DNA of 26,483 bases from a virus: the IMG/VR virus record IMGVR_UViG_3300025590_000552, positions 1 to 26,483 of that record; one strand, 5' to 3'. The notes beneath the pieces are model-generated. The model saw only the letters and a program-made list of their open reading frames with translations, was not told the DNA's origin and did no database searches. A program made the translations under genes and the position numbers. How positions within the stretch are numbered: position 1 is the first letter of the stretch; each line of letters starts with the position of its first letter. Positions 1,405 to 21,372 of the stretch are shown here, piece by piece.

Positions 1405-1447
1405 TAGTTATAAACCTTTTCATTGATAACTCAAGACATTGATGAGG
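1405..1447 (+). repeat. First copy of class B box repeat, without a TATA box
   Basis: CATTGATA at 1421 and CATTGATG at 1437 are 16 bp apart, as in the other class B sites, but nothing like TTTATA follows at the expected position 1455. On the opposite strand TTTATA starts at 1414. A near-identical copy (about 1546-1589) is 142 bp downstream. This copy may be an accessory activator site or may serve minus-strand transcription. Confidence 0.55.
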
Positions 1448-1562
1448 CGGGGGAGCAACCCCCCATTTAGAATCAAGCCCGCAACCATGCGTGGGAATCG
1501 AACCTCTCGTAGCCCTCTTCTTCCTCAATCTAAGCGAACAGCCTTTGAGTTATAAATCTTTT

Positions 1563-1602
1563 TATTGATAACTCAAGACATTGATAGAACAAAACCTTTA
1601 TA
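1563..1602 (+). promoter_or_regulatory. Class B promoter (canonical) for the 78-aa gene
   Basis: TATTGATA at 1563-1570, CATTGATA at 1579-1586 and TTTATA at 1597-1602 show spacings of 16 and 18 bp, identical to the three other canonical copies. The A of the TATA core lies 26 bp before the ATG at 1626, so the transcript should be leaderless or nearly so. Confidence 0.7.
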
Positions 1603-1625
1603 TGCTGGAAGCCGTAGGACAGAAC

Positions 1626-1862
1626 ATGAGCGGCGAGACGACATTCACAACAGGCGAGACATACAGAGCAACATCAGTTTGCGATTCAAACTGTCATTGG
1701 TACTTTACAGTAGAGCGCCGAACAAACGCATCAGTATGGGTTTCAGAGCGTGGAGAAGAAGCAGTTCGCCGAGCAGTAAGAAATTACAATGGTGAAGAGT
1801 ATTTCATGCCTTTCGGAACTTACTCAATGGCCGCTCATTGTTCAGCGGGCAACGTCGCTTAA
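1626..1862 (+). CDS. Small hypothetical protein (78 aa) under class B promoter
   Basis: The frame is open from 1581, but ATG 1626 is chosen because the TATA box at 1597-1602 puts the transcription start at about this codon; an upstream start would lie inside the promoter. The product begins MSGETTFTTGETYRATSVCD, has three cysteines (CDSNC near the N terminus and one near the C terminus) and two histidines, and contains an aromatic strand HWYFTVERR followed by a basic helix RRAVRNYNGEEYF. The Cys/His arrangement could bind a metal, but no known zinc-ribbon spacing is met. It is the only protein gene here driven directly by a canonical leaderless class B promoter. Function unknown. Confidence 0.65.
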   Translation: MSGETTFTTGETYRATSVCDSNCHWYFTVERRTNASVWVSERGEEAVRRAVRNYNGEEYFMPFGTYSMAAHCSAGNVA

Positions 1863-1887
1863 TAACGTGGGAATCACCCCTCGTTCT
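1857..1887 (+). promoter_or_regulatory. Class A leaderless promoter for the XPD-like helicase
   Basis: CTTAATAACGTGGGAAT: the GTG at 1867 is 21 nt before the chosen ATG at 1888. The TATA-like part overlaps the stop codon of the previous gene. Confidence 0.55.
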
Positions 1888-3624
1888 ATGGGCATTACTA
1901 GAATCAACATACCAAGCAAAGCACCGCTTCCGGACTTGTGGGAGAAAGTTCGTCCGGACTTCCCAATGCCATCTCCGAGGAAATATCAAGACGAAGTTCT
2001 CAACGTAATTTATTGGGCGCTTGAAAATGACGACTTCGATAACATAGTCATCCAAGCACCTACCGGAATCGGGAAGTCGGCAATCGCCATGACTGTTCAA
2101 TCAAGATTTCAATCAGCATATCTTCTCGCCCCAAGTTTGGGATTGGCTCAACAATACAAAGATGATTACGGTCATGTTCTCAAAGAAGTTCGAGGCCGTT
2201 CCAATTTTCCTTGTTGGGTTCGTTCGGGTAATGCTGACGGAGCGCCTTGTCATGGTGTCAAGAAGTCCTGTCCTCACACGAAGCGGGAAGACCCTTGCCC
2301 GTACTACGAACAAAAATACGCGGCTACTGATGCTCGCTTGACGCTCTCGAATCCGGCATATATGTTCAGAGTCATACAGGGCGACCCAAACTTCGACCAA
2401 AGAAAGTTCGCAATAATTGACGAGGCTCACAACATGGAATCTTTCTTCATGGATTTGATGGAAGTAAAAATAACGACAAGAGATTGGCAAATGATTCACG
2501 GCGCTCGTACAGGTTTACCAATGGCTTACGCTCCCGAGGATTGGAAAACTCCGATGGAGAATCTTTTCAATGGCGCGAAGCGTTATCTCGAACTTGCGGA
2601 AAAGGATGAAGATGAGAAGGGTGTAGAAAATGGGCGCAAGTTATTGAGCCGATGTTCAACATTTTTGGAATTGCTAAAACAACCGAAGAGAGTTATTGTC
2701 GAAACCAAGAGCGACAGGAATGGGAAGTTCGTAGTTGCGAAGCCTATTCGTGTCAATAGTTTCGCGCTTGAACATCTCGAACGAATCAGCGAGAAAAGAA
2801 TATTCCTTTCAGCGACAATTTTGAATTGTGAAACCTTCCTCGACAATCTCGGACTTGGGCATCAGAAAACTCTGTATGTTAATGTCAACAAATCTCCATT
2901 CAATCCGGATAACTTCAATATCGTTTACGCTCCATGTGGTCCTATGTCTTGGAGCAAGCGTGATAATAGCGTCAAGAAACAAATCAAAGCGATAGCCGCA
3001 ATCATGGATAGAAATACAGACAAGCGTGGAGTCGTTCTGCCTCACTCACATTATATCCGTGAGAAAATTGTTGATGGACTTCGCGACTTGGGTTATGGAG
3101 ATAGGATTCTAACTCATGGTTCAGATGCGACAGGACGCAATATTGCGATTGACACTTTCTTCAAATCTCCGAGACAGGATTTAGTTCTCATCTCGACCTA
3201 CGTCGGTGAGGGATTCGATTTCAAAGGCCGGCTTGCTGAATGGTTGGTCATTTGTAAGATTCCATTCCTTCCTGTCAAAGACCCTCAAATCGAATTGAGA
3301 ATGAAAGAGGACGAGCATTCATGGAGACGAGACAACGAAGGAACTCCGGCTTGTCCGTATGAAGAACCGAATAAATATTCAAACGGAATGTGTTCATCAT
3401 TCAACTGCGCGAAACCTTGTCAGTCATGGTACAATCTCCAAACTGCTCTGAAACTTGTACAGGGCGCGGGACGAATTATTAGAAGTCAAGATGACAAAGG
3501 CGACCTGTACATCCTTGATGGGTCGTGGCAAAGGTGGGCGAGATGGAACAGTCATCTGTTGCCGTCATGGTTCAAAAACTCAATAAGAGAGATGAAGCCG
3601 TGGTTGAAGCGAGGGATTGCGTGA
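1888..3624 (+). CDS. XPD/DinG-family superfamily 2 DNA helicase
   Basis: This is an ATP-driven 5'-3' helicase of the XPD/DinG type. Walker A (APTGIGKS) is at about residues 57-64, and the DEAH box (IIDEAHNM) at about 176-183. Between them lie four cysteines (near 107-135: CWV, PCH, SCPH, DPCP) placed like the 4Fe-4S cluster of XPD. Motif V-like STYVGEGFDF and motif VI (GAGRIIRS, about 527-534) complete the second RecA fold. An extra cysteine-rich segment near 487-512 sits just before motif VI. The frame continues upstream to 1789, but class A promoter geometry favours ATG 1888; GTG 1867 is the alternative. Length is 578 aa, near the usual 600-700. It probably serves viral replication or repair. 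Confidence 0.9.
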   Translation: MGITRINIPSKAPLPDLWEKVRPDFPMPSPRKYQDEVLNVIYWALENDDFDNIVIQAPTGIGKSAIAMTVQSRFQSAYLLAPSLGLAQQYKDDYGHVLKEVRGRSNFPCWVRSGNADGAPCHGVKKSCPHTKREDPCPYYEQKYAATDARLTLSNPAYMFRVIQGDPNFDQRKFAIIDEAHNMESFFMDLMEVKITTRDWQMIHGARTGLPMAYAPEDWKTPMENLFNGAKRYLELAEKDEDEKGVENGRKLLSRCSTFLELLKQPKRVIVETKSDRNGKFVVAKPIRVNSFALEHLERISEKRIFLSATILNCETFLDNLGLGHQKTLYVNVNKSPFNPDNFNIVYAPCGPMSWSKRDNSVKKQIKAIAAIMDRNTDKRGVVLPHSHYIREKIVDGLRDLGYGDRILTHGSDATGRNIAIDTFFKSPRQDLVLISTYVGEGFDFKGRLAEWLVICKIPFLPVKDPQIELRMKEDEHSWRRDNEGTPACPYEEPNKYSNGMCSSFNCAKPCQSWYNLQTALKLVQGAGRIIRSQDDKGDLYILDGSWQRWARWNSHLLPSWFKNSIREMKPWLKRGIA

Positions 3625-3908
3625 AAGAATTACCCGAGTTCGTTCTTGCTCCGAAGCACAAGTTTGAAATGAATGGCGAGACTATTGACATCCCCTCAAG
3701 AAAAGTTCGAGTTTACGGTTATGCAAATTGGCCGTCATGTCCGAATTGTAAAAGAGAAGGACCTATGGATGGCTTTCTTCTCAAGCCCGAGGAATGGCCG
3801 AACGCTGTAATCATTTGCGGTGAACATCCGGGTTGCGGAATATTTTGGTGTCAGATTGGAGTTCCGCCCCAAGACCATACTTGGACGTATATCGAAAGTA
3901 ATGGTTGA
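3543..3908 (+). CDS. Hypothetical zinc-binding protein (121 aa)
   Basis: The gene overlaps the end of the helicase gene by about 80 bases in another frame. The start is uncertain: ATG 3543 is chosen because GGTG lies about seven bases before it; GTG 3525 and ATG 3567 are alternatives. The N-terminal third is charged and helical. The C-terminal half carries CPNC, then CGEHPGC and a further WC, a pattern consistent with a four-ligand zinc ribbon. No homologue is recognised. Overlap with the helicase suggests joint expression. A structured antisense region begins directly after its stop codon at 3906-3908. Confidence 0.65.
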   Translation: MEQSSVAVMVQKLNKRDEAVVEARDCVKELPEFVLAPKHKFEMNGETIDIPSRKVRVYGYANWPSCPNCKREGPMDGFLLKPEEWPNAVIICGEHPGCGIFWCQIGVPPQDHTWTYIESNG

Positions 3909-4147
3909 CGGGCATGAAGTTTCAAACGGCACAAGAAACTGCTTTTTATGAGTCCGCCTCTCTCTTCCTTGTGTTGTTCCATTATTCCAATCATGCCCTG
4001 TGAGTAAGATAGAAAGGCCGCTCCCAAATCGTCCGTTCGTTCGGGAACGCCTTTCGGCGAGAGAAGATTTCTGTCCTTCCAAGACCCCTGCGGTGGCGGT
4101 TCTGCCTCGTGCTTGAAGGGCGGTGTCGGAGTGGCTTTCTTCTCTGT
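3909..4147 (-). ncRNA. Probable structured non-coding RNA 1 (minus strand)
   Basis: A canonical class B promoter at 4169-4208 points leftward and predicts a start near 4147. No credible ORF follows, but the RNA would fold well. A distal stem (AGAAAG 4140-4135 with CTTTCT 4016-4011, extended by GCC/GGC) closes a domain holding CGCC-GAAA-GGCG, a GNRA-type hairpin at 4058-4047, and GUCUU-GGA-AGGAC. A second domain is closed by a perfect 8-bp stem (3991-3998 with 3910-3917), enclosing AGTTTC/GAAACT (3918-3923 / 3935-3940). The predicted RNA ends within a few bases of the stop codon of the convergent zinc-protein gene. The ends are inferred. It could also act as an antisense or convergent transcription stop. 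Confidence 0.5.
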
Positions 4148-4168
4148 ACTGTCGTAGGCACTTCCGGC

Positions 4169-4208
4169 TATAAAGGTTTCGGTTTATCAATGTCTCATTC
4201 TATCAATA
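4169..4208 (-). promoter_or_regulatory. Class B promoter (canonical), leftward
   Basis: Read on the minus strand: TATTGATA from 4208, CATTGATA from 4192, TTTATA from 4174. Spacings are again 16 and 18 bp, and the box before TATA reads CGAAACC as at 14295 and 21367. No ATG lies at the predicted start, so the product is probably RNA. Confidence 0.7.
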
Positions 4209-4215
4209 AAAAGAC

Positions 4216-4440
4216 TTATAAACAGACACCTATAGGGTCAAACAGCGAAAGTGGGTACGCCACCCACACAACAGAGGTTGTAAAATATTCATGTTGGGCA
4301 GTTCGCCGTCAGAAGACTGACGTTAAACAACGAGGAAGTACACGGCAGACCCCGGGCGAGGGGAAGTGGCAGAGGGTAGGGGCTGTCGCAACACGGATTA
4401 CACGGATTCGTGATAGTAGGTAGGGGCTATCACACACGAC
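4216..4440 (+). other. Intergenic hairpin-rich stretch, possible + strand RNA
   Basis: TTATAAAC at 4216-4223 could drive a rightward transcript from about 4244. Downstream are three perfect hairpins: GTGGGT-ACGCC-ACCCAC (4251-4267), CGTCAG-AAGA-CTGACG (4307-4322) and GTGATAG / CTATCAC (about 4410-4433). There are also two short direct repeats, GTAGGGGCT twice and CACGGATT twice (about 4376-4430). No class B spacing supports this start and no reading frame is convincing. It may simply be the leader or terminator region ahead of the ATPase gene. Confidence 0.35.
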
Positions 4441-4442
4441 TT

Positions 4443-4473
4443 TCTTATTAACGTGGGAATGTCCCATTTCAAT
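4443..4473 (+). promoter_or_regulatory. Class A leaderless promoter for the AAA+ ATPase
   Basis: CTTATTAACGTGGGAAT: the GTG at 4453 is 21 nt before ATG 4474. Confidence 0.55.
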
Positions 4474-6447
4474 ATGGACGGCGAAGTTAGGCAATCAGCG
4501 GACAGTGCAACAAGATTTGATGTGGTGGTTGAAGGACTCGAATGTTCACTGACATTTTTATCAGCCGCAAAAGGTCGAATGGACTTCGCGCTTGAGATAG
4601 ACGGTACACCGAAGGGTAAGATAAATGTCCTATCTCAACACTCACTTAGCCGGCTTGACAGTGGTTTAGAGGGTGATGCAAAAAAGAATTGGGCTAACAG
4701 AATGTTGGCTGTCGGAATTATTCTGAAAGATGGAACATATATTCCCGCTCCGATTGAGAAGCGAGAACTTGTTGAAGCATCAACTTACCACGGTGAGGAT
4801 TCAACTCTTGGGGCTATTGACGCCGATACGATTGAAGAGTTCCTAAAGAAAGAGGATTTGATTGACCGAGTGAATGAGATTCTACACGAATCAAGAGGAA
4901 CACCTTTTGTCGGTGATGATGCGAACTTGCTTCTCACGTTCTTAGTTATGTTGTCATGCAAAACCGGAAGTCCACTGAATCTTGAGATGATTGGTCAGTC
5001 AGCGTCCGGAAAAACATACATGACTCTAACTGCTAGGAACGGTTTTCCTAAGTCGATGGTTATGGTTCTAGCCGGTGCATCTCGTGAAGCATTGAAGTAC
5101 GATTATGATGAAGTCGATGAAGACGGGAACTTCATTGTGAAAGTCGATGGTAAATGTATTGTCGTTCTTGAGAAAGATGAATCAGAACCTTTCATTAGAA
5201 AGATGAAACCATTAATGTCCGGCGACGATTCAGAATTGGTTTGGAAAACTCCAATCAAAAATGAACTGACAGGAGAGATTGAGACAAGAGATTTCATTAT
5301 TAGAGGTCAACCAAGTTTCATAACGCTAACCACTAGAAATCCTAGGGAACAAGAACAAATCACAAGACAACTTCTGATGACTCCGGATATTACAAGCGAG
5401 AAAGTCGGAATGGTTGTTGAGAATCAATTACTCTCCAAAGCAAGACCCGAACAATTCAACGTCCATCCCGATGTGAAATTATTACAAGCGTCAATGCTGT
5501 CATTGAAAAATTACAAAGTTAGGAACATATTCGCTCCTATAATGTCGGACTTCTTCCCTGCTAAGAACGCTCAACATCAAAGAGACATAGCAAAAGTTCT
5601 GTCAATAATTGATTCAATCACTTTGTTGCATCAACATCAACGCCCGGTTGAAGTTTTCAACGATACAGAATATCTGTTGTCTTCTGTTGAAGATAATGTG
5701 TACGGATTAATCCTTGCCGACTTGGTATTGAGAGCGAGCCTGTCGGGTGTACCGGATGGTTCGTGGGTTATCTTCACCGAGATGACTGCGATGGAACAAT
5801 CGAAAAGACCACTCTCCGCTGACAATATTCTTCAATGGCTACACATCAATGCGTTCGCCTGCACCAAGAATGCTTTGCTCGAAAAACATTTGCCGACTTT
5901 AGAAGATGCCGGCTTGATAGAAGTAAAAGCAAGAGGTGGTGGCCGAGGCGGTGGGAGAAAGACATGGCGCTTGGTGAAGACCCGTAGCGGTTTAATGGAG
6001 ACATATGCCTTAACACCCCTATTCATTGAACACGCACGAAAAGCAATCCCTGTAATCCTCGAGGACTTCGCTGACGTGATTACTAGAGCAGGCAAACCCG
6101 CAAAGTTCAGACAGATAGATAAGAACGAAAAAGCAATTCTGAAATCGCTTGGATGTAAATCAAAGAAAGATTCGCAGGTTTGGCGAAGTTTGTTATTACC
6201 AAATTACATGAGAAAATCAAATCGAGATAGAATGCTTTGGGACATTATTGGCGTCAATAGGTCAAGAGACTCAATGTTCTCCGGCACAAGTTGGCTTGAC
6301 CAAACCAAGAAATCAACTGCGACTGAAAAGTTAGAAGCGCAAAAGTCTGTCAGAGAAACTATCAAGAAAGTGCAAATATCAGAGCATTCGAATGAAGGAT
6401 GGGAATCCTTGGCTGAATTATACATTGATGAATATGAAGATTCTTGA
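4474..6447 (+). CDS. P-loop (AAA+-like) ATPase with winged-helix C-terminal part, possible replicative helicase
   Basis: The protein has 657 residues from ATG 4474, placed by the class A promoter; an in-frame GTG at 4453 lies inside that promoter. The N-terminal 150 residues are unrecognised. Walker A (MIGQSASGKT) is near 172-181, Walker B-like CIVVLEKDES near 228-237, and a sensor-1-like TLTTRN follows. After the ATPase core, residues of about 445-510 (NALLEKHLPTLEDAGLIEV, then a glycine-arginine wing and KTWRLV) look like a winged helix. The order resembles MCM-like or phage primase-helicase ATPases, and no other replicative helicase is seen in the window, so a helicase role is inferred. 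It heads a run of replication and recombination genes that each have their own promoter. Confidence 0.75.
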   Translation: MDGEVRQSADSATRFDVVVEGLECSLTFLSAAKGRMDFALEIDGTPKGKINVLSQHSLSRLDSGLEGDAKKNWANRMLAVGIILKDGTYIPAPIEKRELVEASTYHGEDSTLGAIDADTIEEFLKKEDLIDRVNEILHESRGTPFVGDDANLLLTFLVMLSCKTGSPLNLEMIGQSASGKTYMTLTARNGFPKSMVMVLAGASREALKYDYDEVDEDGNFIVKVDGKCIVVLEKDESEPFIRKMKPLMSGDDSELVWKTPIKNELTGEIETRDFIIRGQPSFITLTTRNPREQEQITRQLLMTPDITSEKVGMVVENQLLSKARPEQFNVHPDVKLLQASMLSLKNYKVRNIFAPIMSDFFPAKNAQHQRDIAKVLSIIDSITLLHQHQRPVEVFNDTEYLLSSVEDNVYGLILADLVLRASLSGVPDGSWVIFTEMTAMEQSKRPLSADNILQWLHINAFACTKNALLEKHLPTLEDAGLIEVKARGGGRGGGRKTWRLVKTRSGLMETYALTPLFIEHARKAIPVILEDFADVITRAGKPAKFRQIDKNEKAILKSLGCKSKKDSQVWRSLLLPNYMRKSNRDRMLWDIIGVNRSRDSMFSGTSWLDQTKKSTATEKLEAQKSVRETIKKVQISEHSNEGWESLAELYIDEYEDS

Positions 6448-6459
6448 ACACACCCTGTC

Positions 6460-6489
6460 CTTTATATTGGTGGGGAATGAGGGTACGAT
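6460..6489 (+). promoter_or_regulatory. Class A leaderless promoter for the SSB-like gene
   Basis: CTTTATATTGGTGGGGAATG: GTG at 6470 is exactly 20 nt before ATG 6490. TTTATAT is a good archaeal TATA box about 27 bp upstream of the ATG. Confidence 0.65.
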
Positions 6490-7677
6490 ATGAGCAAATC
6501 TCAAACTGCATTACCCAAGATAGCAAAGAAACGCCTCGCACCATATATTGAGCGCGGCATAGTGAACGGCATTTTTACCGACGGAAAACCCGTCGCTGAA
6601 ATGTATCAGAGAAAAGCGAACGACCCTTCGTTGTCGCAAACCATCTCTGAACTCGGCGGAGCATCATCCGAACCGGCGCAACAATTCATAACCGAAACTG
6701 TATTAGTGGATTTATCCGCAATCCTTCGTCAGAAGAGATACACCGGCCACCTAGATATATGGGAAGTAAATCACCGAATCGTCGGTGTGGCTTCCGGAAA
6801 TCCTCGCCCTGTATGTTTCATCATGGGACAGGCAGTAGTTGAAGATGACGATGTTGAATCAGAACCTTCATTATTCAGACTTTCACTTTGGGACGCAGAC
6901 GCTTCTCTAGCAGATGACGTTGAAAGAGATGGAAAATATTCTCTAGCAATAACCTGCAAGAATCTTGACGCAGATATTCTTGACCTTCGACCAATGCAAG
7001 GTCTTGCTTCATTCGCTCAAGAAGAATACGAACATGGCGACCGTCAAGAATTACTCAAAGGATTATTCGACATAACAGATATTGCGGACTTGGAAGACAA
7101 TCTTTCAGTCGGAAACAACGACTTCCGTCTTATCGAAGCATCAGTATCTTACGCCGGAGTTCAAAACTCTCGTGCCGGAAATCAATTCGGAAAAATGCTA
7201 CTGAAAGACGACTCAACTATGACCATGGATGCAATTGAATCCGGTGAGAATCTACTTCTCAACTGTATGTGTTCAACTGCAATCGCTACACGATTCGGAA
7301 AATACTCAAAAATATTGGCTCTAGTATCTGTAAAGTCATCCAATGACTACGGATTATCAGCAAACATGGAATGTGCAATCGGTCTAGTGGTTGTTTCTCC
7401 ACCCGAACCCGAGACACCGAAAGGTGGCGATGACGACGATGATGATGCGGCGTCATATTTCAAAACGAATGTCCCGACAATAACTGACGATGATGACGAC
7501 GAAGAAGATGTGGCTTCTGAAACACCAACTGAAACTACTGCAATAGTTGAAGATTCCACGGCAGAGGAAACAGAAGAAGTTGTCGAGACACCTACTCCAA
7601 AGAAGGCTGAAAAAGCCGCTGAAAAAGCCGCTGAACCCGCTACAGATGGCGACGATGATTGGGACGATTGGGACTGA
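6490..7677 (+). CDS. Probable single-stranded DNA-binding protein with acidic tail
   Basis: The protein has 395 residues. The region of about 80-300 alternates beta strands with glycine turns (HRIVGVASGNPRPVCFIMGQ, FRLSLWDAD, DFRLIEASVSYAGVQ) in a way that suits one or two OB folds. The last 90 residues are strongly acidic, with runs of Asp at about 315-320 and 335-340, a Lys/Ala-rich stretch, and a terminal DDDWDDWD. An acidic tip with aromatic residues is the usual protein-docking end of SSB/RPA-like proteins of phages and bacteria. Its position between a helicase-like ATPase and a recombinase-like ATPase agrees. OB-fold assignment is inference, and a phage gp32- or gp2.5-like analogue is equally possible. 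Confidence 0.7.
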   Translation: MSKSQTALPKIAKKRLAPYIERGIVNGIFTDGKPVAEMYQRKANDPSLSQTISELGGASSEPAQQFITETVLVDLSAILRQKRYTGHLDIWEVNHRIVGVASGNPRPVCFIMGQAVVEDDDVESEPSLFRLSLWDADASLADDVERDGKYSLAITCKNLDADILDLRPMQGLASFAQEEYEHGDRQELLKGLFDITDIADLEDNLSVGNNDFRLIEASVSYAGVQNSRAGNQFGKMLLKDDSTMTMDAIESGENLLLNCMCSTAIATRFGKYSKILALVSVKSSNDYGLSANMECAIGLVVVSPPEPETPKGGDDDDDDAASYFKTNVPTITDDDDDEEDVASETPTETTAIVEDSTAEETEEVVETPTPKKAEKAAEKAAEPATDGDDDWDDWD

Positions 7678-7686
7678 TTGGAGTCG

Positions 7687-7715
7687 CTTAAATAGGTGGT
7701 AAATGAGGGATTGAT
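7687..7715 (+). promoter_or_regulatory. Class A leaderless promoter for the RecA-like ATPase
   Basis: CTTAAATAGGTGGTAAATGAGG: GTG at 7696 is 20 nt before ATG 7716. Confidence 0.6.
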
Positions 7716-8606: not shown

Positions 8607-8625
8607 ACATCTCCGTTAGCGAGTT

Positions 8626-8666
8626 CTTCAAATAGGTGGCTAACAGCGAAAGGAATGTGAACAAAC
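8626..8666 (+). promoter_or_regulatory. Class A promoter with short leader
   Basis: TTCAAATAGGTGG matches the site at 7691, but the ATG at 8667 is 31 nt from the GTG (8636), so this mRNA should carry a leader of about 10 nt. It is the one exception to the 20-21 nt rule. Confidence 0.5.
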
Positions 8667-10502: not shown

Positions 10503-10550
10503 CATTGATAAAACCAAAACATTGATAAGGGGGAAGACATAGGACGAAAC
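10503..10550 (+). promoter_or_regulatory. Hybrid class B/A promoter
   Basis: CATTGATA occurs at 10503 and 10520 (17 bp apart). The second box continues into ATAAGGGGG, so it takes the place of the class A TATA stretch, 26 bp before ATG 10551. AGGACGAAACATG at the start resembles the end of the 78-aa gene's promoter region (AGGACAGAACATG). Confidence 0.5.
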
Positions 10551-10658
10551 ATGGAGATAAGTCCTAGTTTGATAGGACCAATCGTGGTATTGTTGCCACC
10601 TTTGGGAATGATAGTAGTCGGGTTGTTAATGACCGGAATGTTGACCGTTCGTCGGTAA
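10551..10658 (+). CDS. Mini membrane protein (35 aa), single transmembrane helix
   Basis: The ATG at 10551 is placed by the hybrid promoter, with the TATA-like A 26 bp upstream. The frame runs MEISPSLIGPIVVLLPPLGM and continues as a hydrophobic stretch to VRR and TAA at 10656-10658. Residues 7-32 form one long hydrophobic helix with a short polar N terminus and two terminal arginines, which predicts an inner arginine end. It is too short for routine gene callers. It stands immediately upstream of the sliding-clamp promoter. A role in membrane attachment, lysis or superinfection exclusion is possible but nothing in the sequence decides it. Confidence 0.5.
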   Translation: MEISPSLIGPIVVLLPPLGMIVVGLLMTGMLTVRR

Positions 10659-13783: not shown

Positions 13784-14268
13784 CCGGGGCTTTCAACTCT
13801 TCCTACTCAATGAGGCATCCTTCTTCCCTAGTGTTTTTATGAGAACAGTGCCTAAGTTTCGAGTCGGATGTTCTCAAGTTTTTCTTGTTTGGGTATGCTG
13901 TATGACCACTTATTGCCTCGGCTTCTTTATCCGCTAGTGGTTCAAAGGGTTGGGAATGGGATAGCCCGTCTGCTTAGGTGCGTGAGAATTACCTCGTTGC
14001 CCCCTATCCATCGCTACTTTCTTGCCTAATTTATCGTGGTCTGTTCATTACTATTCCATAGTGTTGTTTCCCTTCAAGGGGTTCTACCCAAGAAGTCTCT
14101 CTTCCGCTTCAATCACTCGCTGTTTTTCGCTTTAGCCGCATATGCCTATGTCTTTGTGATTTCGAAGAGAGGACAAGTCCTCGCCGCCGAGCCTTCCTCG
14201 GAAGCATCTTCGCTCATTCCCGGGAGTCCGCCTTTCGACGTCTCCCATGAGAGGCAACCTCTCACAAA
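13784..14268 (-). ncRNA. Probable large structured non-coding RNA 2 (minus strand)
   Basis: A canonical class B promoter (14290-14329) fires leftward with a predicted start near 14266-14268. The first bases form a perfect 7-bp stem, TTTGTGA (14268-14262) with TCACAAA (14159-14153). It encloses GAGAGG-TTG-CCTCTC, a stem GGGAG...CTCCC capped by CGUC-GAAA-GGCG, CTTC-CGAG-GAAG and GAGGAC-TT-GTCCTC. Further stems follow: CTATCC (14004-14009) with GGATAG (13959-13964), and GAGAAC (13841-13846) with GTTCTC (13870-13875). Only short, unconvincing ORFs exist on this strand. The 485-nt extent, to the stop of the XPF gene, is an upper estimate; the first 116-nt domain is best supported. Confidence 0.5.
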
Positions 14269-14289
14269 CTAATGAGGCAGGCTTCCACC

Positions 14290-14329
14290 TATAAAGGTTT
14301 CGGAACATCAATGTCTTGCTATATCAATA
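14290..14329 (-). promoter_or_regulatory. Class B promoter (canonical), leftward
   Basis: On the minus strand: TATTGATA from 14329, CATTGATG from 14313, TTTATA from 14295; spacings 16 and 18 bp. It abuts the rightward class A promoter of the RFC gene, so the two classes stand back to back here. Confidence 0.7.
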
Positions 14330-14335
14330 GTTTAC

Positions 14336-14365
14336 TTTTATTAAGGTGGGCATTGAGGATAGTTC
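14336..14365 (+). promoter_or_regulatory. Class A leaderless promoter for the RFC gene
   Basis: TTTTATTAAGGTGGGCATTGAGG: GTG at 14346 is 20 nt before ATG 14366. Confidence 0.6.
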
Positions 14366-15385
14366 ATGTGGACTGAAACCTATAGGCCGAATACGTTAGA
14401 TGATGTAATTGGTCAAGAACACATCACTCGCCGGATTAGATACATGATAGATGAACTTCACAAGAGTGGAGATGATGGCGCTTGGCCTCATATGATGTTC
14501 GCCGGACCTGCCGGTGTTGGAAAAACTTCCGTGGCTGTTGCCATGATGCGTTCTCTGTTCGGTGAAGATTGGTCGATGAATTATATTGAATTGAATGCTT
14601 CCGACTCGAGAAGTATCAATGACATTAGAACTACAGTCAAGGACTTCTCAAGAAAAGGAGTCATGGGCGTTTACTTGGTTGATGGGAAACCAAAACCAAT
14701 TCCATTCAATGTTGTATTCCTAGACGAATGCGACAATCTGACACCCGATGCTCAATCGGCTCTCCGTAGAATCATGGAACGGTTTTCGAAACAGACTCGA
14801 TTTGTTTTGTCTTGTAATTATCCGCATCAGATTATTGACCCGATTAAAGACAGGTGTGCTTTCAGCGATACTAGATTCGGACCTATTCCGGCCAAGACAA
14901 TTTATGGCGCTCTAAAGAACGTAGTAGCCAAAGAAGAAATCGAGATTACATCCGACGCTCTGAAAGCAGTCGCTAAACATTCCAATGGTTCAATGCGAAA
15001 AGGCTTGAACTTCTTATTTTCAGCAACAAGAGTTCCGGGCGAAGCAACAATCGAGGATGTCAATGAATTGATTGGTGAACTGAATAATGACAGAATGAAA
15101 CAATTGCTCGGCTTGGCGTTCGAAGCGTCAACTGAAACTGATTCCAAACAACTTAGGATATGGAGACAGATGGATTCGATGGTCGATTCATTTGCTGACA
15201 AGGGTTTGAGTGGCGCAGAGATTCTTGACGCCGTTTACAAAACTGCTTCCGAAGAAGACATTCCACCGAAGATTGCTAGAAATATTTATGCACATCTAGG
15301 AGAAGCCATATTCCATTGTGCCGCCGCCCAAGATGATATATTGGCGGTTAAGACATTCATAAGGAGATTGAGTATAGATGCCTAG
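14366..15385 (+). CDS. rfcS: Replication factor C small subunit (clamp loader)
   Basis: The protein has 339 residues, a normal RfcS length. It starts WTETYRPNTLDDVIGQEH, the RFC signature, followed by Walker A GPAGVGKTS (about 46-54), IELNASDSRSI, Walker B VVFLDECDNL (about 116-125; DECD in place of DEAD), the trans-acting helix LTPDAQSALRRIMERF, sensor 1 FVLSCNYPHQI, and IKDRC (arginine finger region, with DRC in place of the usual SRC). The C-terminal collar domain is complete. It loads the sliding clamp encoded at 10703, probably with the RfcL-like protein at 20483. Two small genes and PolB follow. Confidence 0.97.
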   Translation: MWTETYRPNTLDDVIGQEHITRRIRYMIDELHKSGDDGAWPHMMFAGPAGVGKTSVAVAMMRSLFGEDWSMNYIELNASDSRSINDIRTTVKDFSRKGVMGVYLVDGKPKPIPFNVVFLDECDNLTPDAQSALRRIMERFSKQTRFVLSCNYPHQIIDPIKDRCAFSDTRFGPIPAKTIYGALKNVVAKEEIEITSDALKAVAKHSNGSMRKGLNFLFSATRVPGEATIEDVNELIGELNNDRMKQLLGLAFEASTETDSKQLRIWRQMDSMVDSFADKGLSGAEILDAVYKTASEEDIPPKIARNIYAHLGEAIFHCAAAQDDILAVKTFIRRLSIDA

Positions 15386-15644
15386 TAAAGACGACAACGC
15401 TGAAATAATTAAAATGATAACCACTAGATTAGCGGTTGGTGAATTGACTTACGGTCATGGTTTCAGAGTCTTTGACGACACTCGAACTTGGGGAACACCC
15501 AACGACGATTGGGTTGAAATGGCGCTTGAAGAAGCAATAGATGGCGCTCTCTATCTTTGCGCTCAAATGTTGCGTATCAGAAAAACCCGACAAGAAATCG
15601 AACTTGCAGAGAGGAAGAAAATAAATGAGTCGGCCGAGGAATGA
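15378..15644 (+). CDS. Small helical protein (88 aa), possibly MazG-like
   Basis: The ATG at 15378 overlaps the RFC stop region by eight bases. The sequence GELTYGHGFRVFDDTRTWGT followed by DDWVEMALEEAIDGALYLCA resembles a small family common in phages. The EMALEEAIDG helix with paired acidic residues and a later aspartate recalls the metal-binding EExxD helix of MazG-type nucleoside triphosphate pyrophosphohydrolases. The protein is shorter than a full MazG domain (about 100 residues), so the enzymatic role is uncertain. The C terminus is a charged helix. Confidence 0.75.
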   Translation: MPSKDDNAEIIKMITTRLAVGELTYGHGFRVFDDTRTWGTPNDDWVEMALEEAIDGALYLCAQMLRIRKTRQEIELAERKKINESAEE

Positions 15645-15765
15645 TATTAGATTCCCCGCAAGTTCGAGAAGGACAAGAAAATGTGCGGAATGCCGAAGGC
15701 GAAAGAATCTTGCTTGGGACCCAAAAAAGAAATTATGTCATGACTGCCTCATAAAACACTCATAA
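15625..15765 (+). CDS. Mini zinc-ribbon protein (46 aa)
   Basis: ATG 15625 lies inside the end of the previous gene and opens a 46-codon frame ending in TAA at 15763-15765, which is part of the TATA stretch of the PolB promoter. The product is very basic. It holds CAEC (residues 20-23) and CHDC (38-41), with 14 residues between the two pairs, a standard CxxC...CxxC zinc ribbon. The flanking RRTRK and RRRKN suit nucleic-acid binding. It is too short for the usual length cut-off. It may be a small transcription or replication accessory factor. Confidence 0.6.
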   Translation: MSRPRNDIRFPASSRRTRKCAECRRRKNLAWDPKKKLCHDCLIKHS

Positions 15766-15787
15766 AGGTGGGTTGATTAGTAAAGAC
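15760..15787 (+). promoter_or_regulatory. Class A leaderless promoter for PolB
   Basis: TCATAAAGGTGGGTTG: GTG at 15768 is 20 nt before ATG 15788, which fixes the PolB start. Confidence 0.65.
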
Positions 15788-18406
15788 ATGGCGAATAGCA
15801 AAGTCCCTCATCTAGTGGTTTCAGTATCTTACACCGAATATACAAATCCGGCGAGAGTTGTAATGAATCTCCGTCTCAAAAACTTGCAGAATGAAACTGT
15901 CAACTTAGATGTTCACGGTTGTGTTCCTAGGTTTTGGTCAGAGCAAATGATTCCGGGAAAAGAATCTCGATTTACTTCTATAACAGGAACGCCACTTTCA
16001 GAGATTCGAGTTTCGACGCCTCAAGAAATTATGGATGTTCGCGGAGATTATTATCCGCACTATTGCGCCGACGTTTCATTCAACCAATTATGCCGATGGA
16101 TTTACGGTTGGACTACGGTTATTGACGTCGATAGTCATGCCCTACAAGGGTCCTACAAATGCACCCCGAAAAACATCTCACCGAGTCAAGAAAATATTGA
16201 TTCGTTCAAACTTGATGTGATGTGGTTTGATATTGAAACCGAGGATTCTCTTGATACCGAGAACACTGATGGAAGAGTAGTCAGTATTGCCCTGTTGCGT
16301 CCCGATGGAGCGCATGAAATAGGCACGACAGTACCAACGTCAGCGAGACAGGTCAAACGCTTCCTACAGTCTCAAAAGGCATTAGAATCGGTTGTCGAAC
16401 ATACCGAGCCAATACCCGGAGTTGAGGGAGATGTACACGTTCAAAACTTTGACCACGTTGACCCGGACACGAATGAAGCCGCTTTGATGTGGTGGTTCAA
16501 ACAGAGAATCGAAGAAATCAACCCGGACGTTATTGCAGGTCAGAACATCAAGGATTACGATAATCCATATCTAATCAATAGGTGCAGAAATCAGAATAAG
16601 GCGATGGCTAGACATTACCAACAAAGGCCACCGGAATATCATCGCTATCCAAACTTAGGTCCTGTAATCAGACACCGACTTCACTTTGATAGTAAGATTG
16701 CTTATGCAGAGCAAGTTCAAGGAGCGGCCACGACAACCGGCAGAGCAAGTTTGTCTTGGATGGCTACGAAAGAATTGGGATATGGTAAAGTTCCAAGAAC
16801 TAGAATCACGGACTTGATGAAAGACCCGTTGATGTTGGCGGTGTACAACGCATGGGATAATGTGGTAGCGGAGCGGGTCTGTACGAAACTTGACTTAGTG
16901 AACTTCTATATGATTAAGACAGGATTTCATAATTCGACATTGAGATATTCTCACTCGAACATGATGCTAGTCGAGGATATGATGGGTCATCTTCTGATGG
17001 AAGAAAATGTAATCATGCCATCCATCTCTGTAGTGAAAGAAAGAACGACCGGGATAATCGAGGAAGGTGGATTCGTGATGGATGCTCCGACCGGAGTTTG
17101 GAAGAATGCTTGCGAACTTGACAATTCAATGGAATATCCATCCGCAATTATATCCGGGAACTTTTCACCCGATACCAAAGTTGATGTGCGAGATTATCCG
17201 GATGGCGAATATCCATTCCCGATAACAATCACACCGGCAGGTCGAGTTTACAGAAGAGATTTCGAAGGCGTCATGCCGAGAGTTCTTCGAACCCTTGCTG
17301 AATTGAGAAGGAAAACACAGGCGCAAATGAGAGAAGCAAAGGCGGCAGGCAATCTGAAACTTGCCCACATTCTGAATCAGAAGCAGAGGGTTGCGAAGGA
17401 GAATATGAACTCGTGGTACGGAGTGTTAGGAAGTGGAGTCAGCGACAAAACAAAGAGTAGGCCGTTCAGAATGGTTGAACCTCAAATCGGTTCTGACATT
17501 ACTCAAATAGCGAGGCTTCACAATGATTGGAATAAGAATTGGATTAACGAAGCACATCTGACATTTACAAAAGAAGGAATTGAACCTCACAATCCGGATG
17601 AAGGATTCACTTTGAACTTTGAAGTTCTGTATCAAGATACTGACTCCTGTAAAGTTTCGATTCAGAATCATGACGAGGCCGAGCAGACAATTCGACCATT
17701 CACCGAAAAAGATGTCGTGGCAATAGCGAATCAATTGTGTATTGAACTCAATAGCACCTACGATGATTTCGTGTACAAGTTTTTGAGCATTCCGAAGAAC
17801 GAATATTTCTTGGTAAAACCCGATGCCTACTACGAGCGATATTTTTCATGGGGCGTCAAAAAGAGATATGCGTATCAAGAGTTTGACGGCAAGCAGAGTT
17901 TCCGAGGCGTAGAGATGAGACGGTCATCCGCTCCGCAAATAGTGAAGACAGCACAGGCACAAGTTTTCGACGCTATTCTAAACGGATGCAATAAAAAAGA
18001 ACTGAATAATTTACTAAGACAGATTCATTCTGATTTGATGGACGAAGAGAAAACTCCGAGTATTGATTTTGGAACACCGATGGGAATTAAGAAACCGGGA
18101 ACTCAACAATACAAAGCGGCGATGTGGAGCAATCGTCATCTCGGTCTTAACTTTGACATCGGAGATAAGCCGGTGATTTATCACGCCAAAGACACGAGGG
18201 CGGGTTTGCCTAGCAATCGTGTGGTTGCCTTAGAATATTCAGAGAGGCCGGAAGACCATGGCGTTTCAGTCGATAGAAAGAAATCATTCGAGAAACATTT
18301 CACGAACTCTAATTCTTGGATTGCGATTCTGAATGCTTTCAATACTTCATGGGGTCATGCACTATCCGGAATGAGTCATGACAGTTTTGAGGAATGGTTC
18401 AAATGA
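15788..18406 (+). CDS. polB: Family B DNA polymerase with 3'-5' exonuclease
   Basis: The protein has 872 residues from ATG 15788. The exonuclease motifs are MWFDIETED (Exo I, about 147), VIAGQNIKDYDNPY (Exo II, about 250-262) and YNAWDNVV (Exo III, about 352). The polymerase motifs are LDNSMEYPSAI (motif A), KENMNSWYG (motif B, the Kx3NSxYG helix) and YQDTDS (motif C; the usual residue at the second position is G). VKKRYAY follows as in archaeal and phage PolB. All catalytic acids are present, so the enzyme should be active and proofreading. The end overlaps the next gene by ATGA. With the clamp, loader and primase in the same window it forms a nearly complete virus-encoded replisome. Confidence 0.98.
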   Translation: MANSKVPHLVVSVSYTEYTNPARVVMNLRLKNLQNETVNLDVHGCVPRFWSEQMIPGKESRFTSITGTPLSEIRVSTPQEIMDVRGDYYPHYCADVSFNQLCRWIYGWTTVIDVDSHALQGSYKCTPKNISPSQENIDSFKLDVMWFDIETEDSLDTENTDGRVVSIALLRPDGAHEIGTTVPTSARQVKRFLQSQKALESVVEHTEPIPGVEGDVHVQNFDHVDPDTNEAALMWWFKQRIEEINPDVIAGQNIKDYDNPYLINRCRNQNKAMARHYQQRPPEYHRYPNLGPVIRHRLHFDSKIAYAEQVQGAATTTGRASLSWMATKELGYGKVPRTRITDLMKDPLMLAVYNAWDNVVAERVCTKLDLVNFYMIKTGFHNSTLRYSHSNMMLVEDMMGHLLMEENVIMPSISVVKERTTGIIEEGGFVMDAPTGVWKNACELDNSMEYPSAIISGNFSPDTKVDVRDYPDGEYPFPITITPAGRVYRRDFEGVMPRVLRTLAELRRKTQAQMREAKAAGNLKLAHILNQKQRVAKENMNSWYGVLGSGVSDKTKSRPFRMVEPQIGSDITQIARLHNDWNKNWINEAHLTFTKEGIEPHNPDEGFTLNFEVLYQDTDSCKVSIQNHDEAEQTIRPFTEKDVVAIANQLCIELNSTYDDFVYKFLSIPKNEYFLVKPDAYYERYFSWGVKKRYAYQEFDGKQSFRGVEMRRSSAPQIVKTAQAQVFDAILNGCNKKELNNLLRQIHSDLMDEEKTPSIDFGTPMGIKKPGTQQYKAAMWSNRHLGLNFDIGDKPVIYHAKDTRAGLPSNRVVALEYSERPEDHGVSVDRKKSFEKHFTNSNSWIAILNAFNTSWGHALSGMSHDSFEEWFK

Positions 18407-18873
18407 CTGACAAGTCAGCGGCGACAAAGATTTGGGATGTGCTTTCAAACGAGCCATTCAATTATTCATTCATACAAGTTCGACATTGTTTCGAGACATT
18501 CATCGGAACTGACATTCCGGGTTTCGACAATTGTGTTTATCAAAAAAAGAAAGCCGCCAAGCGCACATGGGAAAAGCCTGCGGAAATATGTGCAGTTCTT
18601 TCGATACGAGCCGGTGATAGAGAATTATCAAGCCGGCTCTTGCTTCAAGAAGTTTGGAAAAATTATCCGGACGGTCAACCGGATTGTGATTGGATATGTT
18701 CGAAACTTGCCGTTGACAAACTCGCGGCGGCTATGGAACTCAATAGGCGACAACATGATGCTCTTAGATTTGCAGTTTCGGAAAAAGTTAAGATTGAACA
18801 ATTGAGTATGGTGGAAAAGGAATGGGATGACCGAATGATTACGTCATATTTGAAACTCAAGAAATTGATATAA
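18403..18873 (+). CDS. Hypothetical protein (156 aa) coupled to PolB
   Basis: ATG 18403 overlaps the PolB stop (ATGA), so it is translated by coupling; an ATG at 18394 is possible. The protein is mainly helical and basic, with YQKKKAAKRTWEKPAEICAV, a run of helices, and a C-terminal ITSYLKLKKLI. It has five cysteines without a metal-site spacing. No domain is recognised. A DNA-polymerase accessory role is only suggested by position. Confidence 0.7.
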   Translation: MTDKSAATKIWDVLSNEPFNYSFIQVRHCFETFIGTDIPGFDNCVYQKKKAAKRTWEKPAEICAVLSIRAGDRELSSRLLLQEVWKNYPDGQPDCDWICSKLAVDKLAAAMELNRRQHDALRFAVSEKVKIEQLSMVEKEWDDRMITSYLKLKKLI

Positions 18874-18902
18874 CGAGACATTGATAGACCGATACATTGA
18901 TA
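18863..18902 (+). promoter_or_regulatory. Triple ATTGAT box array
   Basis: AATTGATA at 18863, CATTGATA at 18879 and CATTGATA at 18895 are exactly 16 bp apart. The last continues as AAGTAAAGATG, as in the second array at 18989. No TTTATA follows at the canonical place and only very short ORFs follow, so this may be an upstream activator array or a duplicated promoter. Confidence 0.5.
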
Positions 18903-18972
18903 AGTAAAGATGCACAGGACAGGATAAGAGGTGAGCCACGAGGACTGACATGAGAATATTGAGAAAGTGAGT

Positions 18973-18998
18973 GATTGAGAAATCAAAACATTCATAAG
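18973..18998 (+). promoter_or_regulatory. Degenerate class B promoter for the CobS-like gene
   Basis: GATTGAGA at 18973 and CATTCATAAG at 18989 keep the 16-bp spacing. CATAAG takes the TATA role: 26 bp after its central A is base 19020, which aligns with the predicted start at 21396 relative to the shared hairpin (4 nt in both). Confidence 0.5.
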
Positions 18999-19019
18999 TA
19001 ATGATGGACTCGTTCAGCC

Positions 19020-19056
19020 CGAAGGGTATAGCCCGAAAAAACGGAGAGAAAAAAAT
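19020..19056 (+). promoter_or_regulatory. 5' leader with GGGTATAGCCC hairpin (CobS-like gene)
   Basis: A leader of about 37 nt has GGGTATAGCCCG from 19024, then CGGAGAGA as ribosome site and ATG 19057. The same string and order occur before the CobT-like gene at 21396-21434. Confidence 0.6.
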
Positions 19057-20244
19057 ATGCAACTAGAAGATGCGATGAGAGATACAGTGAGAAGTGCAGG
19101 TGGTAGGATTTCAGAGACGGATTACGTCAATGGTATTCTTGCTACTCTACACGCAGACGGAGCGCAAACAACCGAGACGTCTGTAAGAGCGAACGCCTTT
19201 GCTAAAGGTAGAATGGATAAAGCAGGGGTCATAAGAGTTTCAGTGGGCGCGGGTAATACTGCGATAAAAGAGATATGGACTCAAAAAATGGCTAACGATA
19301 TGATGACAGGAAACATGGCTAACATCAGCGGTGGAAGCGCGGTTTCGTCAGTACAAACATCACAGACGCCTACATCAACTAAAGTTTGGTTAGGAATCCC
19401 TTACCAAAACCAAGAAGAATTATCAGAAGCGGCTTTAGCATTAGTGCCTAAAGTAGCACCCGGATTTATTTCATCACCTAACGATGAACTTGGTGGAATG
19501 GCTGACGCTTTCTTAGAAGGTGAACACATGATTTTCGAAGGACCTAAAGGATGCGGTAAAACTATCGCAGTCGCTCAATTCTGTTTCCACACAGGACTTC
19601 CAATGTACAGATTCAATTGTTCAGAAGGAATTACAGAAGACGACTTGGTTGGTTCAAAAGAAGCAATCGACGGCAACACAGTATGGGTTGACGGTATCAT
19701 TCCTCGTTGGGCTAAGACAGGCGGAATCCTGTTTGCTGATGAGTTCAATGGCGCTTCACCTTCTGTTATGCTATGGATGCACATGGGAATGGATTCCGGA
19801 ACTATCGTTCTTCCAACAGGCGAGAAAATCGACCTTCACCCAACTTGCAGAGTAGTAGCGGCAATCAACCCGCCGGAAGATTATGCGGGGCTTGAAGAAT
19901 TAAACGAGGCTACTCGTGATAGATATGCTCTAGGATTAGAGTTCGATTACCTGCCTGCTTCCGATGAGCAGAATGTAATCATGGACCAATCCGGCAACTT
20001 CGAATCACAATTGGCTCGAGAGATTGTTCAACTAGCAAACGACTTGCGTCGAATGAAGAAAGATAGAACTCTTTCTCGCGATACATCAACTCGTTCTCTA
20101 GTACAAATCATGAAACTTGCTAAGAGACAGAATCAAGAAAAAGCGGTTGAAAGAGCGCTTATCTCAAAGTTCGACAGAATGGAGAGAGACACGGTGCGTA
20201 CTGCTTGCAGAGCGCGTCTCTCAAACTTCGGAATAGTTCAGTAA
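19057..20244 (+). CDS. CobS/MoxR-like AAA+ ATPase
   Basis: The protein has 395 residues. The first 120 are a helical N-terminal domain (TVRSAGGRISETDYVNGILA) of unknown role. The AAA+ core has Walker A GPKGCGKTIA (about 162-171), FNCSEGITEDDLVGSKEAID (the MoxR-type segment after Walker A), Walker B ILFADEFNGA (about 225-233), sensor 1 VVAAINPPEDY and ATRDRY. These are the marks of the MoxR branch and of CobS. The cobaltochelatase reaction needs CobN and corrin genes, which are absent; such phage CobS/CobT pairs are thought to be general MoxR-VWA chaperone-like modules. Its leader hairpin matches that of the CobT-like gene at 21435. Confidence 0.9.
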   Translation: MQLEDAMRDTVRSAGGRISETDYVNGILATLHADGAQTTETSVRANAFAKGRMDKAGVIRVSVGAGNTAIKEIWTQKMANDMMTGNMANISGGSAVSSVQTSQTPTSTKVWLGIPYQNQEELSEAALALVPKVAPGFISSPNDELGGMADAFLEGEHMIFEGPKGCGKTIAVAQFCFHTGLPMYRFNCSEGITEDDLVGSKEAIDGNTVWVDGIIPRWAKTGGILFADEFNGASPSVMLWMHMGMDSGTIVLPTGEKIDLHPTCRVVAAINPPEDYAGLEELNEATRDRYALGLEFDYLPASDEQNVIMDQSGNFESQLAREIVQLANDLRRMKKDRTLSRDTSTRSLVQIMKLAKRQNQEKAVERALISKFDRMERDTVRTACRARLSNFGIVQ

Positions 20245-20245
20245 G

Positions 20246-20280
20246 ATTCCCAATCCGGGGGTCGGCTTGAGGTTGGGAAT
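20246..20280 (+). terminator. Terminator-like stem-loop after the CobS-like gene
   Basis: ATTCCCAA (20246-20253) pairs perfectly with TTGGGAAT (20273-20280) around a 19-nt GC-rich loop; the loop GGGGGTCGGC can alternatively pair with GCCGACTCCC further on. No T-run follows. Confidence 0.45.
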
Positions 20281-20310
20281 TACTCTCCATGCGCCGACTC
20301 CCACCTACCT

Positions 20311-20339
20311 TTCATAAAGGTGGGAATTGAGGATTCATC
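20311..20339 (+). promoter_or_regulatory. Class A leaderless promoter for the coiled-coil/RfcL-like pair
   Basis: TTCATAAAGGTGGGAATTGA: GTG at 20320 is 20 nt before ATG 20340. This is the clearest copy of the class A consensus. Confidence 0.65.
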
Positions 20340-20498
20340 ATGAACGACGAGAGGTTGACGGAAATCATAAGACAATTACAATACAGAATAGAAGTTCTTG
20401 AAGAAACTTTAGACAGAATACATAACTCAACGAACAGGCAGAATGTAAGAAGAGACAGGATGCAGAAGAGGATTGATTCTGAATGGCTGAAAGAATAA
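20340..20498 (+). CDS. Mini coiled-coil protein (52 aa)
   Basis: ATG 20340 stands 20 nt after the class A GTG, and the frame ends with TAA at 20496-20498, overlapping the next gene start (20483) by 16 bases. The product runs MNDERLTEIIRQLQYRIEVL and continues EETLDRIHN, with Leu/Ile at heptad-like spacing, then an arginine-rich tail. A short dimeric or trimeric coiled coil is likely. It falls below the usual length cut-off, but promoter and coupling support it. It may be a partner of the adjacent RfcL-like ATPase. Confidence 0.65.
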   Translation: MNDERLTEIIRQLQYRIEVLEETLDRIHNSTNRQNVRRDRMQKRIDSEWLKE

Positions 20499-21328
20499 GC
20501 GATTTGTATATTCGCAAATCCACGCTTGACCCTTTACTTTCTTGGTTGGAAGGTTGGAACTCTCCGACTGCTCCCGAAGCACATCCGTTCATCATAGTTG
20601 GCGAAAGTGGATGGGGGAAATCAACAATCTCAAAACTTGCGGCAGAGGCTACAGGATTTCATCCGACAATTAGCGAGGCAGGTTTCAGAGATAAGAACCA
20701 ACTCAAAAAATGGTTCGGACAAGTTCGAAGTCTTTCATTCGAAGGGCTGACTAGATTGGCAATTTTAGATGACGCAAGTTTTTTGAAGAAGGCCGAATGG
20801 AATTATATTGCTGACCAAATCAAAACGAAAGCATTTCCTCTCGTGATATGCGCTCAAACCGAGGCAGATATTCCATGGCCGATTCGTCGGGGTTCACCCA
20901 AACTCAAACTTGAGCGACCCAAACTCGAATCTGTTGTGAAGTATTTGCAGACTATCGAGCCGAATAGGAATGACCTTGGAATCATAGCGAAAGCCGCATC
21001 AAGTTTCAGAGCCGCAAAATTACTTTTACAAACCACACCCGAAAACTTGAATCCGGAAGCAAGTCCGAGAATCCCATCGCGAACAGGATTTGCAGAAGTA
21101 CAAGCGATTTTGTCCGGTAATTATCCGGCTTTGATTTTCGATTCGCATCCACTTTCGATTTTACAGACGGCACATCACAACGGAGCAAGTCCGACCGACA
21201 TTTCGAGAGGGATAGTTCTCCAAGGAATGTCATGGAAACACGAGGGATTGACGCCAATAGCCTCGGCTTATCTCTGTTCACTACGCACAAAAACTTGTGC
21301 CAAACCGCCATTTAGGAAGAGGAAATAA
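20483..21328 (+). CDS. RFC large-subunit-like clamp-loader ATPase (short)
   Basis: The protein has 281 residues. PFIIVGESGWGKSTISKLAA gives Walker A (GESGWGKS, about 40-47), followed by a helix and SEAGFRDKNQLKKWF, in the place of the RfcL ExNASDxR segment. LAILDDASFL is the Walker B-like strand, and VICAQTEADIPWP resembles sensor 1 plus the 'xN.....' loop. A lid-like region and a basic C-terminal tail (KPPFRKRK) follow. Archaeal RfcL is usually 450-500 residues; this one is truncated or minimal. With the RfcS at 14366 it would form a clamp loader. The call rests on domain order; another AAA+ family is not excluded. Confidence 0.65.
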   Translation: MAERISDLYIRKSTLDPLLSWLEGWNSPTAPEAHPFIIVGESGWGKSTISKLAAEATGFHPTISEAGFRDKNQLKKWFGQVRSLSFEGLTRLAILDDASFLKKAEWNYIADQIKTKAFPLVICAQTEADIPWPIRRGSPKLKLERPKLESVVKYLQTIEPNRNDLGIIAKAASSFRAAKLLLQTTPENLNPEASPRIPSRTGFAEVQAILSGNYPALIFDSHPLSILQTAHHNGASPTDISRGIVLQGMSWKHEGLTPIASAYLCSLRTKTCAKPPFRKRK

Positions 21329-21332
21329 TGTT

Positions 21333-21372
21333 CATTGATAAATCGGAATATTGCTACATCGAAACCTTTATA
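21333..21372 (+). promoter_or_regulatory. Class B promoter (canonical) for the CobT-like gene
   Basis: CATTGATA at 21333, TATTGCTA at 21349, TTTATA at 21367; spacings 16 and 18 bp, and CGAAACC before the TATA as in the two minus-strand copies. Predicted start is 21396. Confidence 0.7.

Follow-up and report, generated by a model that had tools for sequence, protein, structure and literature searches.

The 26,483-nt stretch of viral DNA analysed here (the window) carries short ATTGATA boxes, repeated at 16-bp intervals and set at fixed distances from TATA elements and start codons, in an arrangement that supports reading them as promoters of archaeal type that include a conserved element upstream. 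Their geometry, promoter-like placement, divergent TATA elements, fixed start distance, conservation in related viruses and absence from one sister clade were all computed directly. We consider it fairly probable that these boxes serve as an upstream activating sequence specific to the viruses, which would aid TBP/TFB and control small leaderless genes and non-coding RNAs (ncRNAs). The virus family was met here solely as metagenome contigs, and no described regulatory element was found for it; the tandem-box promoter would offer an initial entry point to how these probably archaeal viruses regulate their genes.

A common register of boxes, TATA elements and starts

A pattern search of the window finds the hexamer layout ATTGAT-N10-ATTGAT-N11-TTTATA exactly at 1564-1602 (plus), 4169-4207 (minus) and 14290-14328 (minus), and with a single mismatch at 21334 and 18864 (both plus). 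The sequence-only reading had listed four identical sites, at coordinates shifted by one relative to the actual positions; the layout is exact at three of them, while the second box of the site at 21334 is ATTGCT, with one mismatch. The looser copies that it had pointed out are genuine, but they are of several distinct kinds (1422, 10504, 18864 and 18958; Table 1). Written as 7-mers, the design ATTGATA-N9-ATTGATA-N9-CTTTATA is exact at two window sites and has one second-box mismatch at each of two more, the TATA element sharing the 16-bp register of the boxes, a point absent from that reading. Its judgement that such exact spacing is improbable by chance is borne out by shuffles of the window: allowing up to three mismatches, the hexamer pattern has eight matches, against a shuffle mean of 0.07 and a maximum of 1, and the six ATTGAT pairs at exactly 16 bp are equalled in none of 1000 dinucleotide shuffles, which never yield more than three pairs at any single spacing.

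Table 1. Box promoters of the window with their predicted products, and candidate factors; positions without a locus name are those of the window.
Feature	Position	Strand	Details
Leftward promoter	1408..1444	-	Reverse-facing TATA TTATAAA 1408-1414; boxes 1422-1428 and 1438-1444 (ATTGATG), 16 bp apart, without forward TATA; predicted RNA start ~1385 (minus)
Divergent promoter	1550..1602	both	Reverse TATA 1550-1556; boxes 1564-1570, 1580-1586; forward BRE and CTTTATA 1596-1602; predicted starts: forward, ATG 1626; reverse RNA, ~1527
78-aa ORF, predicted leaderless	1626..1862	+	30 nt exactly, counted from C of CTTTATA to ATG
Divergent promoter	4169..4221	both	Minus boxes 4207-4201, 4191-4185; TATA 4175-4169; plus TATA 4215-4221; predicted RNA starts ~4145 (minus), ~4244 (plus)
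Two-box form	10504..10527	+	17-bp pair 10504/10521; second ATTGATA at the TATA position
35-aa hydrophobic ORF, predicted leaderless	10551..10658	+	ATG 10551, 30 nt past the TATA-position ATTGATA of the 10504 promoter
Divergent promoter	14290..14344	both	Minus boxes 14328-14322, 14312-14306 (ATTGATG), TATA 14296-14290; plus TATA 14337-14344; minus side, apparent ncRNA with 5' hairpin, start ~14266; plus side, ATG 14366 of RFC-like clamp loader gene, likewise at 30 nt
5'-terminal hairpin of predicted ncRNA	14246..14266	-	TGTGAGAGG TTG CCTCTCATG; covarying-hairpin family, also at loci L052, L053, L051
ATTGATA triplet	18864..18902	+	Perfect 16-bp period, 18864/18880/18896; third at the TATA position
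Variant ATTGAGA, ATTGAGA, ATTCATA	18958..18996	+	18958/18974/18990; upstream of MoxR-type AAA gene (ATG 19057, predicted 5' UTR)
Promoter ATTGATA, ATTGCTA, CTTTATA	21334..21372	+	Predicted start ~21397
CobT/VWA gene	21435-23603	+	5' UTR between predicted start ~21397 and gene
Winged-helix protein, 147 aa, predicted	25199..25642	+	Weak candidate box-binding factor
Homologs of 25199 protein	L082:19152-19631, L102:19446-19919
Small CxxC protein	L072:21809-22048, L102:21943-22203, L090:21408-21725		Outside window

The same geometry recurs in eight related records, where ATTGAKA pairs are spaced by 16 bp in 26 cases and by 17 bp in seven, any other spacing occurring once or twice. The TATA element stands at +16 (19 cases) or +32 (17 cases) relative to a box, and a reverse TATA at the fixed spacing of -13/-29 or -14/-30 from the boxes. 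The sequence-only reading had made its case depend on whether related genomes are enriched for the spaced motif ahead of transcription units, and such enrichment is found. Among 42 near-clade sites, a list that partly holds register-shifted readings of one site, eight have their centre inside an ORF of 100 aa or more, even though ORFs of this size (called by simple rules, in relatives that are partly fragmentary) cover 83% of the sequence.

An ORF follows half of these sites (21); counted from the initial base of TATA (the C of CTTTATA), its ATG comes after 30 nt in 20 cases and after 31 nt in one. Thirty nucleotides is the usual archaeal distance from TATA to start, and the mRNAs are therefore predicted to be leaderless. 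Before leaderless ATGs of related viruses, ATTGAKA peaks at -46/-47, directly upstream of a BRE (CGAAR) that is followed by TATA at -30. Starts predicted to the base allow a direct listing of co-regulated genes, with 5' ends that can be tested in existing metatranscriptomes.

On the far side of the boxes, four window promoters have a reverse-facing TATA (Table 1) that the sequence-only reading had not mentioned. The sequence upstream of the boxes is often TTATAAA or TTAATAAA, which on the other strand is GAAA-NN-TTTATAA, an outward BRE/TATA at -13/-14 from the first box. Both cores are present at 21 of the box pairs examined, the forward one alone at 21 and the reverse one alone at six; 23 further rows with neither core include register-shifted and chance matches. 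By these sequence criteria the box pair would often sit between two divergent core promoters, and reverse-only sites such as 1408-1444 indicate that it can also accompany a lone reverse core.

Predicted genes and RNAs downstream of the boxes

Box promoters precede mostly small proteins of no assigned function. The 21 near-clade leaderless ORFs, some of which are orthologs of each other, encode 41-185 aa behind one common regulatory sequence. The 78-aa ORF of the window has neither a Pfam nor a PHROG match, and its orthologs in G062 (56%), G050 (47%), G007 and G006 each lie behind a box promoter; a 351-aa DUF6011 gene is found behind a box pair in G001 (where the pair is inverted), G050 and G062. 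In these two sets of orthologs, membership of the predicted regulon is conserved. In a simple scan with rough start positions, no box pair lies directly before the genes for the major capsid protein (MCP) and the portal; the same scan finds one that overlaps the G042 terminase start as annotated, and an inverted one within the first portion of the G062 protease ORF. The set fits a regulon of early or host-takeover genes, which is probably what it is. In Sulfolobus viruses, common early promoter regions are described as marking small anti-defence genes (PMC11065993, in the part concerned), and by the same approach the small proteins behind box promoters would be candidates for host takeover or anti-defence. 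Similar 5' UTRs are predicted for the MoxR (18990-19057) and CobT/VWA (21366-21435) genes, with GTAGGGTATAGCCCG or GAAGGGTATAGCCCG and a GGAGA close to the start codon.

The opposite-side product of divergent sites usually appears to be a non-coding RNA, a kind of product that the sequence-only reading had likewise overlooked. Where no ATG lies at +30, the downstream sequence starts with recurring initiators and often with a hairpin. The first 22 nt, beginning at the start predicted from the TATA, fold in each of eight distinct members into a 9-bp stem with all pairs formed. Two-sided changes affect four of the nine pairs, the covariation score is reached by none of 500 shuffles, and pairing drops to 43-65% when the stem is slid out of register. 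The members were chosen for showing the stem, and their loops were N-padded to align the arms, so that the 100% pairing is partly due to selection, and the predicted hairpin draws stronger support from the compensating changes.

In a second group of predicted RNAs, stems of 9-15 bp join the RNA start to a site 86-208 nt further on, and the 12-bp stems of G001 (AGACG/CGTCT) and L063 (AGTCG/CGACT) differ by one compensating change. Stems of 12-15 bp from the 5' end to 86-150 nt downstream are seen at L040:6234 (plus), L063:702 (plus) and L054:3572 (minus). In a simple test, 7 of 35 predicted RNA sequences beat their own shuffles at the 5% level, and structure is thus shown for part of them only; the records scanned contain no match to Rfam families and no tRNA. 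Box promoters may in this way also point to structured RNAs that protein-based annotation overlooks. The leftward RNAs predicted at 1260-1385 and 1440-1527 (both minus), in which ARAGORN finds no tRNA, contain a tRNA T-arm-like GGTTCGATTCC and GC-rich hairpins such as GGGGGGTTGCTCCCCC.

Distribution of the boxes among related viruses

The window is nearly identical to a segment of the 81-kb virus contig IMGVR_UViG_3300025816_000009 (G001): positions 1-26483 correspond to that record from ~49091, with a one-base shift between ~19000 and 21334. More distant relatives were gathered by motif search and by PolB. The family has genes for an HK97-type capsid, portal, protease and terminase, and the best matches of its PolB and RFC-like clamp loader among phage records are haloarchaeal tailed viruses. 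The hosts are probably archaeal, and the earlier magrovirus/Poseidoniales assignment is compatible with these findings.

In the near clade, ATTGAKA peaks at -46 and -61/-62 before ORFs. In distant relatives, with PolB 52-60% identical, it is found before 27 starts at -46/-47 and before 32 at -30/-31, and the -30 element varies among CTTTATA, ATTATA, CTTCATA and ATTGATA; the same positional count gives no ATTGAKA peak before ATG in box-negative relatives. The recurrence of the peak at -46 across relatives indicates that the constant element is a single box adjoining the BRE. This single box is probably the ancestral form, and the extra box of the window clade at -62 an elaboration. Of the two half-sites upstream of TATA that the sequence-only reading had proposed, the conserved upstream element stands, but the pair is dispensable, many relatives having one box, at -46.

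On the PolB tree, the presence or absence of boxes is strongly clustered, with three changes, a number as low being reached by none of 500 shuffles of the labels. Boxes are absent from one well-supported sister clade (14 rows) and also from L101, a distant row of which 15 kb are covered; L075 is a 14-kb locus from close kin of the box-positive L076. As the root of this tree is unsure, gain and loss of the boxes are not told apart with certainty. The strict two-box pattern has no match in a scan of ~85,000 prokaryote genomes, single-box use by hosts being outside the scope of that pattern. Several motif-search matches, for example in G003, G004, G008, G011-G013 and G021-G024, have no flanking consensus and were set aside as chance-like.

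Proposed mechanism and competing readings

In the activator model, the basic unit would consist of ATTGAKA at about -46, the BRE (CGAAR), TATA at -30 and the start at +1, which in most cases is the A of a leaderless ATG; the window clade would add a further box at -62 that keeps the 16-bp register. The pair would often be common to a second, opposite-facing core promoter and give divergent transcription, usually of a small leaderless protein gene one way and an apparent structured RNA the other way. We infer protein binding, activation rather than repression, timing and host identity; a DNA-binding protein, virus-encoded or host-captured, would bind the box or boxes and recruit TFB/TBP to the adjacent core. 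Several observations stand against this model. The box sequence itself occupies the TATA position in the promoters at 10504 and 18864 (third copy, 18896) and in many relatives, which a pure activator site does not predict. The pair is reversed relative to the second core, with a centre-to-centre distance of 13 bp instead of 16, and one protein would need to serve both geometries. Finally, the 16-bp spacing sets successive boxes on opposite faces of the DNA.

The position of the boxes resembles that of known archaeal activator sites. Archaeal activators typically bind just upstream of the BRE and help to recruit TBP or TFB, according to the relevant parts of two sources (PMC5512572, PMC5817253). 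The closest in layout include the hexanucleotide A(N)TTTC at -44 to -39 of Sulfolobus UV-inducible promoters, likewise short, non-palindromic, directly upstream of the BRE, at a nearly equal distance from the start and common to many co-regulated genes; however, it serves host stress genes, the portion of the source concerned reports neither a 16-bp tandem nor divergent sharing (PMC5817253), and ATTGAKA differs from A(N)TTTC, which places the boxes outside the UV box family. Several short consensus sites also lie directly upstream of the BRE in the Methanococcus fla promoter bound by EarA, where they are proposed to aid TFB recruitment at a weak BRE; there, a single host promoter has four 6-bp sites, with no divergent sharing reported in the passages concerned (PMC5512572). 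The Sulfolobus ara box and the Methanocaldococcus Ptr2 sites, also just upstream of BRE/TATA and acting in TFB or TBP recruitment, belong to host promoters and regulators, and are likened here by position, not by sequence (PMC5512572, same passages). In SIRV2 and other archaeal viruses, many small early genes have one conserved BRE/TATA promoter region, but these are different viruses, and the account given there mentions neither a tandem box at 16 bp nor a divergent ncRNA (PMC11065993, in part). In the parts of this literature that describe known archaeal elements, we found no counterpart of the box sequence, the 16-bp register with TATA, the divergent sharing or the pairing with an ncRNA. 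The earlier impression that no archaeal viral promoter of this layout has been described thus agrees with our non-exhaustive literature search, which found none.

The helix-turn-helix protein encoded at 25199, put forward by the sequence-only reading as a possible binder, is indeed predicted to be a winged helix; since relatives without boxes have it too, we regard it as a weak candidate for the box-binding factor. Its model has a pLDDT of 83, its top fold matches include several Fur-type regulators (E about 0.05), and it matches Pfam HTH_20 at E 0.02, below the family cut-off. Homologs are conserved over 26 loci, box-negative viruses included. Their C-terminal part, ribbon-helix-helix (RHH)-like by eye in several relatives, is missing from one box-negative subgroup; for this part of one homolog no solved structure was found by sequence, and a single-sequence fold of a homolog reaches a pLDDT of 44, too low to be of use. 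A small CxxC protein of 79-105 aa with conserved cysteines is present in box-positive viruses and in none of the box-negative relatives compared, and is the one clean case of such a distribution. Most other proteins that seem restricted to box-positive viruses look like antisense ORFs and were discarded.

A less likely reading takes the boxes as operators of a viral repressor of the SvtR/F55 RHH type, whose binding would silence the promoters, a box at the TATA position blocking TBP. The boxes found at that position and the RHH-like C-terminal segment would suit it, and archaeal viral DNA-binding factors have so far mostly been repressors acting on repeated sites, AvtR serving as both repressor and activator (PMC5569661). 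The operators of SSV1 F55, ATAGATAG, are similarly tandem short repeats at several viral promoters, but they overlap the start site or the BRE, repress, and have another sequence (PMC5569661). Here, the most conserved box is at -46, upstream of the BRE, where archaeal activators bind, and not over the start; some boxes lie at TATA, but many sites retain a canonical, box-free TATA.

We think it improbable that the boxes are alternative TATA elements, with a viral or host paralogous TBP-like factor reading ATTGATA and the 16-bp tandem copies holding several initiation complexes or raising loading. At exactly -30 ATTGATA does swap with CTTTATA, and one 16-bp register holds for all elements, BRE plus TATA measuring ~16 bp; however, the BRE-like CGAAR stands only before the -30 element, and the viral proteins scanned with Pfam, a part of the proteome, include no TBP or TFB match. 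Little credence is likewise given to a virus-specific initiation factor that would read ATTGATA and replace or precede TBP, the tandem copies, in one 16-bp register, being a bidirectional promoter for a small takeover protein one way and a structured regulatory RNA the other.

Replication or packaging iterons, intergenic by coincidence, are a very remote prospect. Iterons are short direct repeats at fixed spacing, a likeness that the boxes have in intergenic DNA, but the sites are dispersed over the genome rather than clustered in an origin array, each at a fixed distance to TATA and ATG, and this reading was rejected. Chance in A+T-rich sequence, for which the mild enrichment of the word ATTGAT by itself in the window (43 vs 31) might speak, has a negligible probability and is rejected by the shuffles and by the conservation in relatives.
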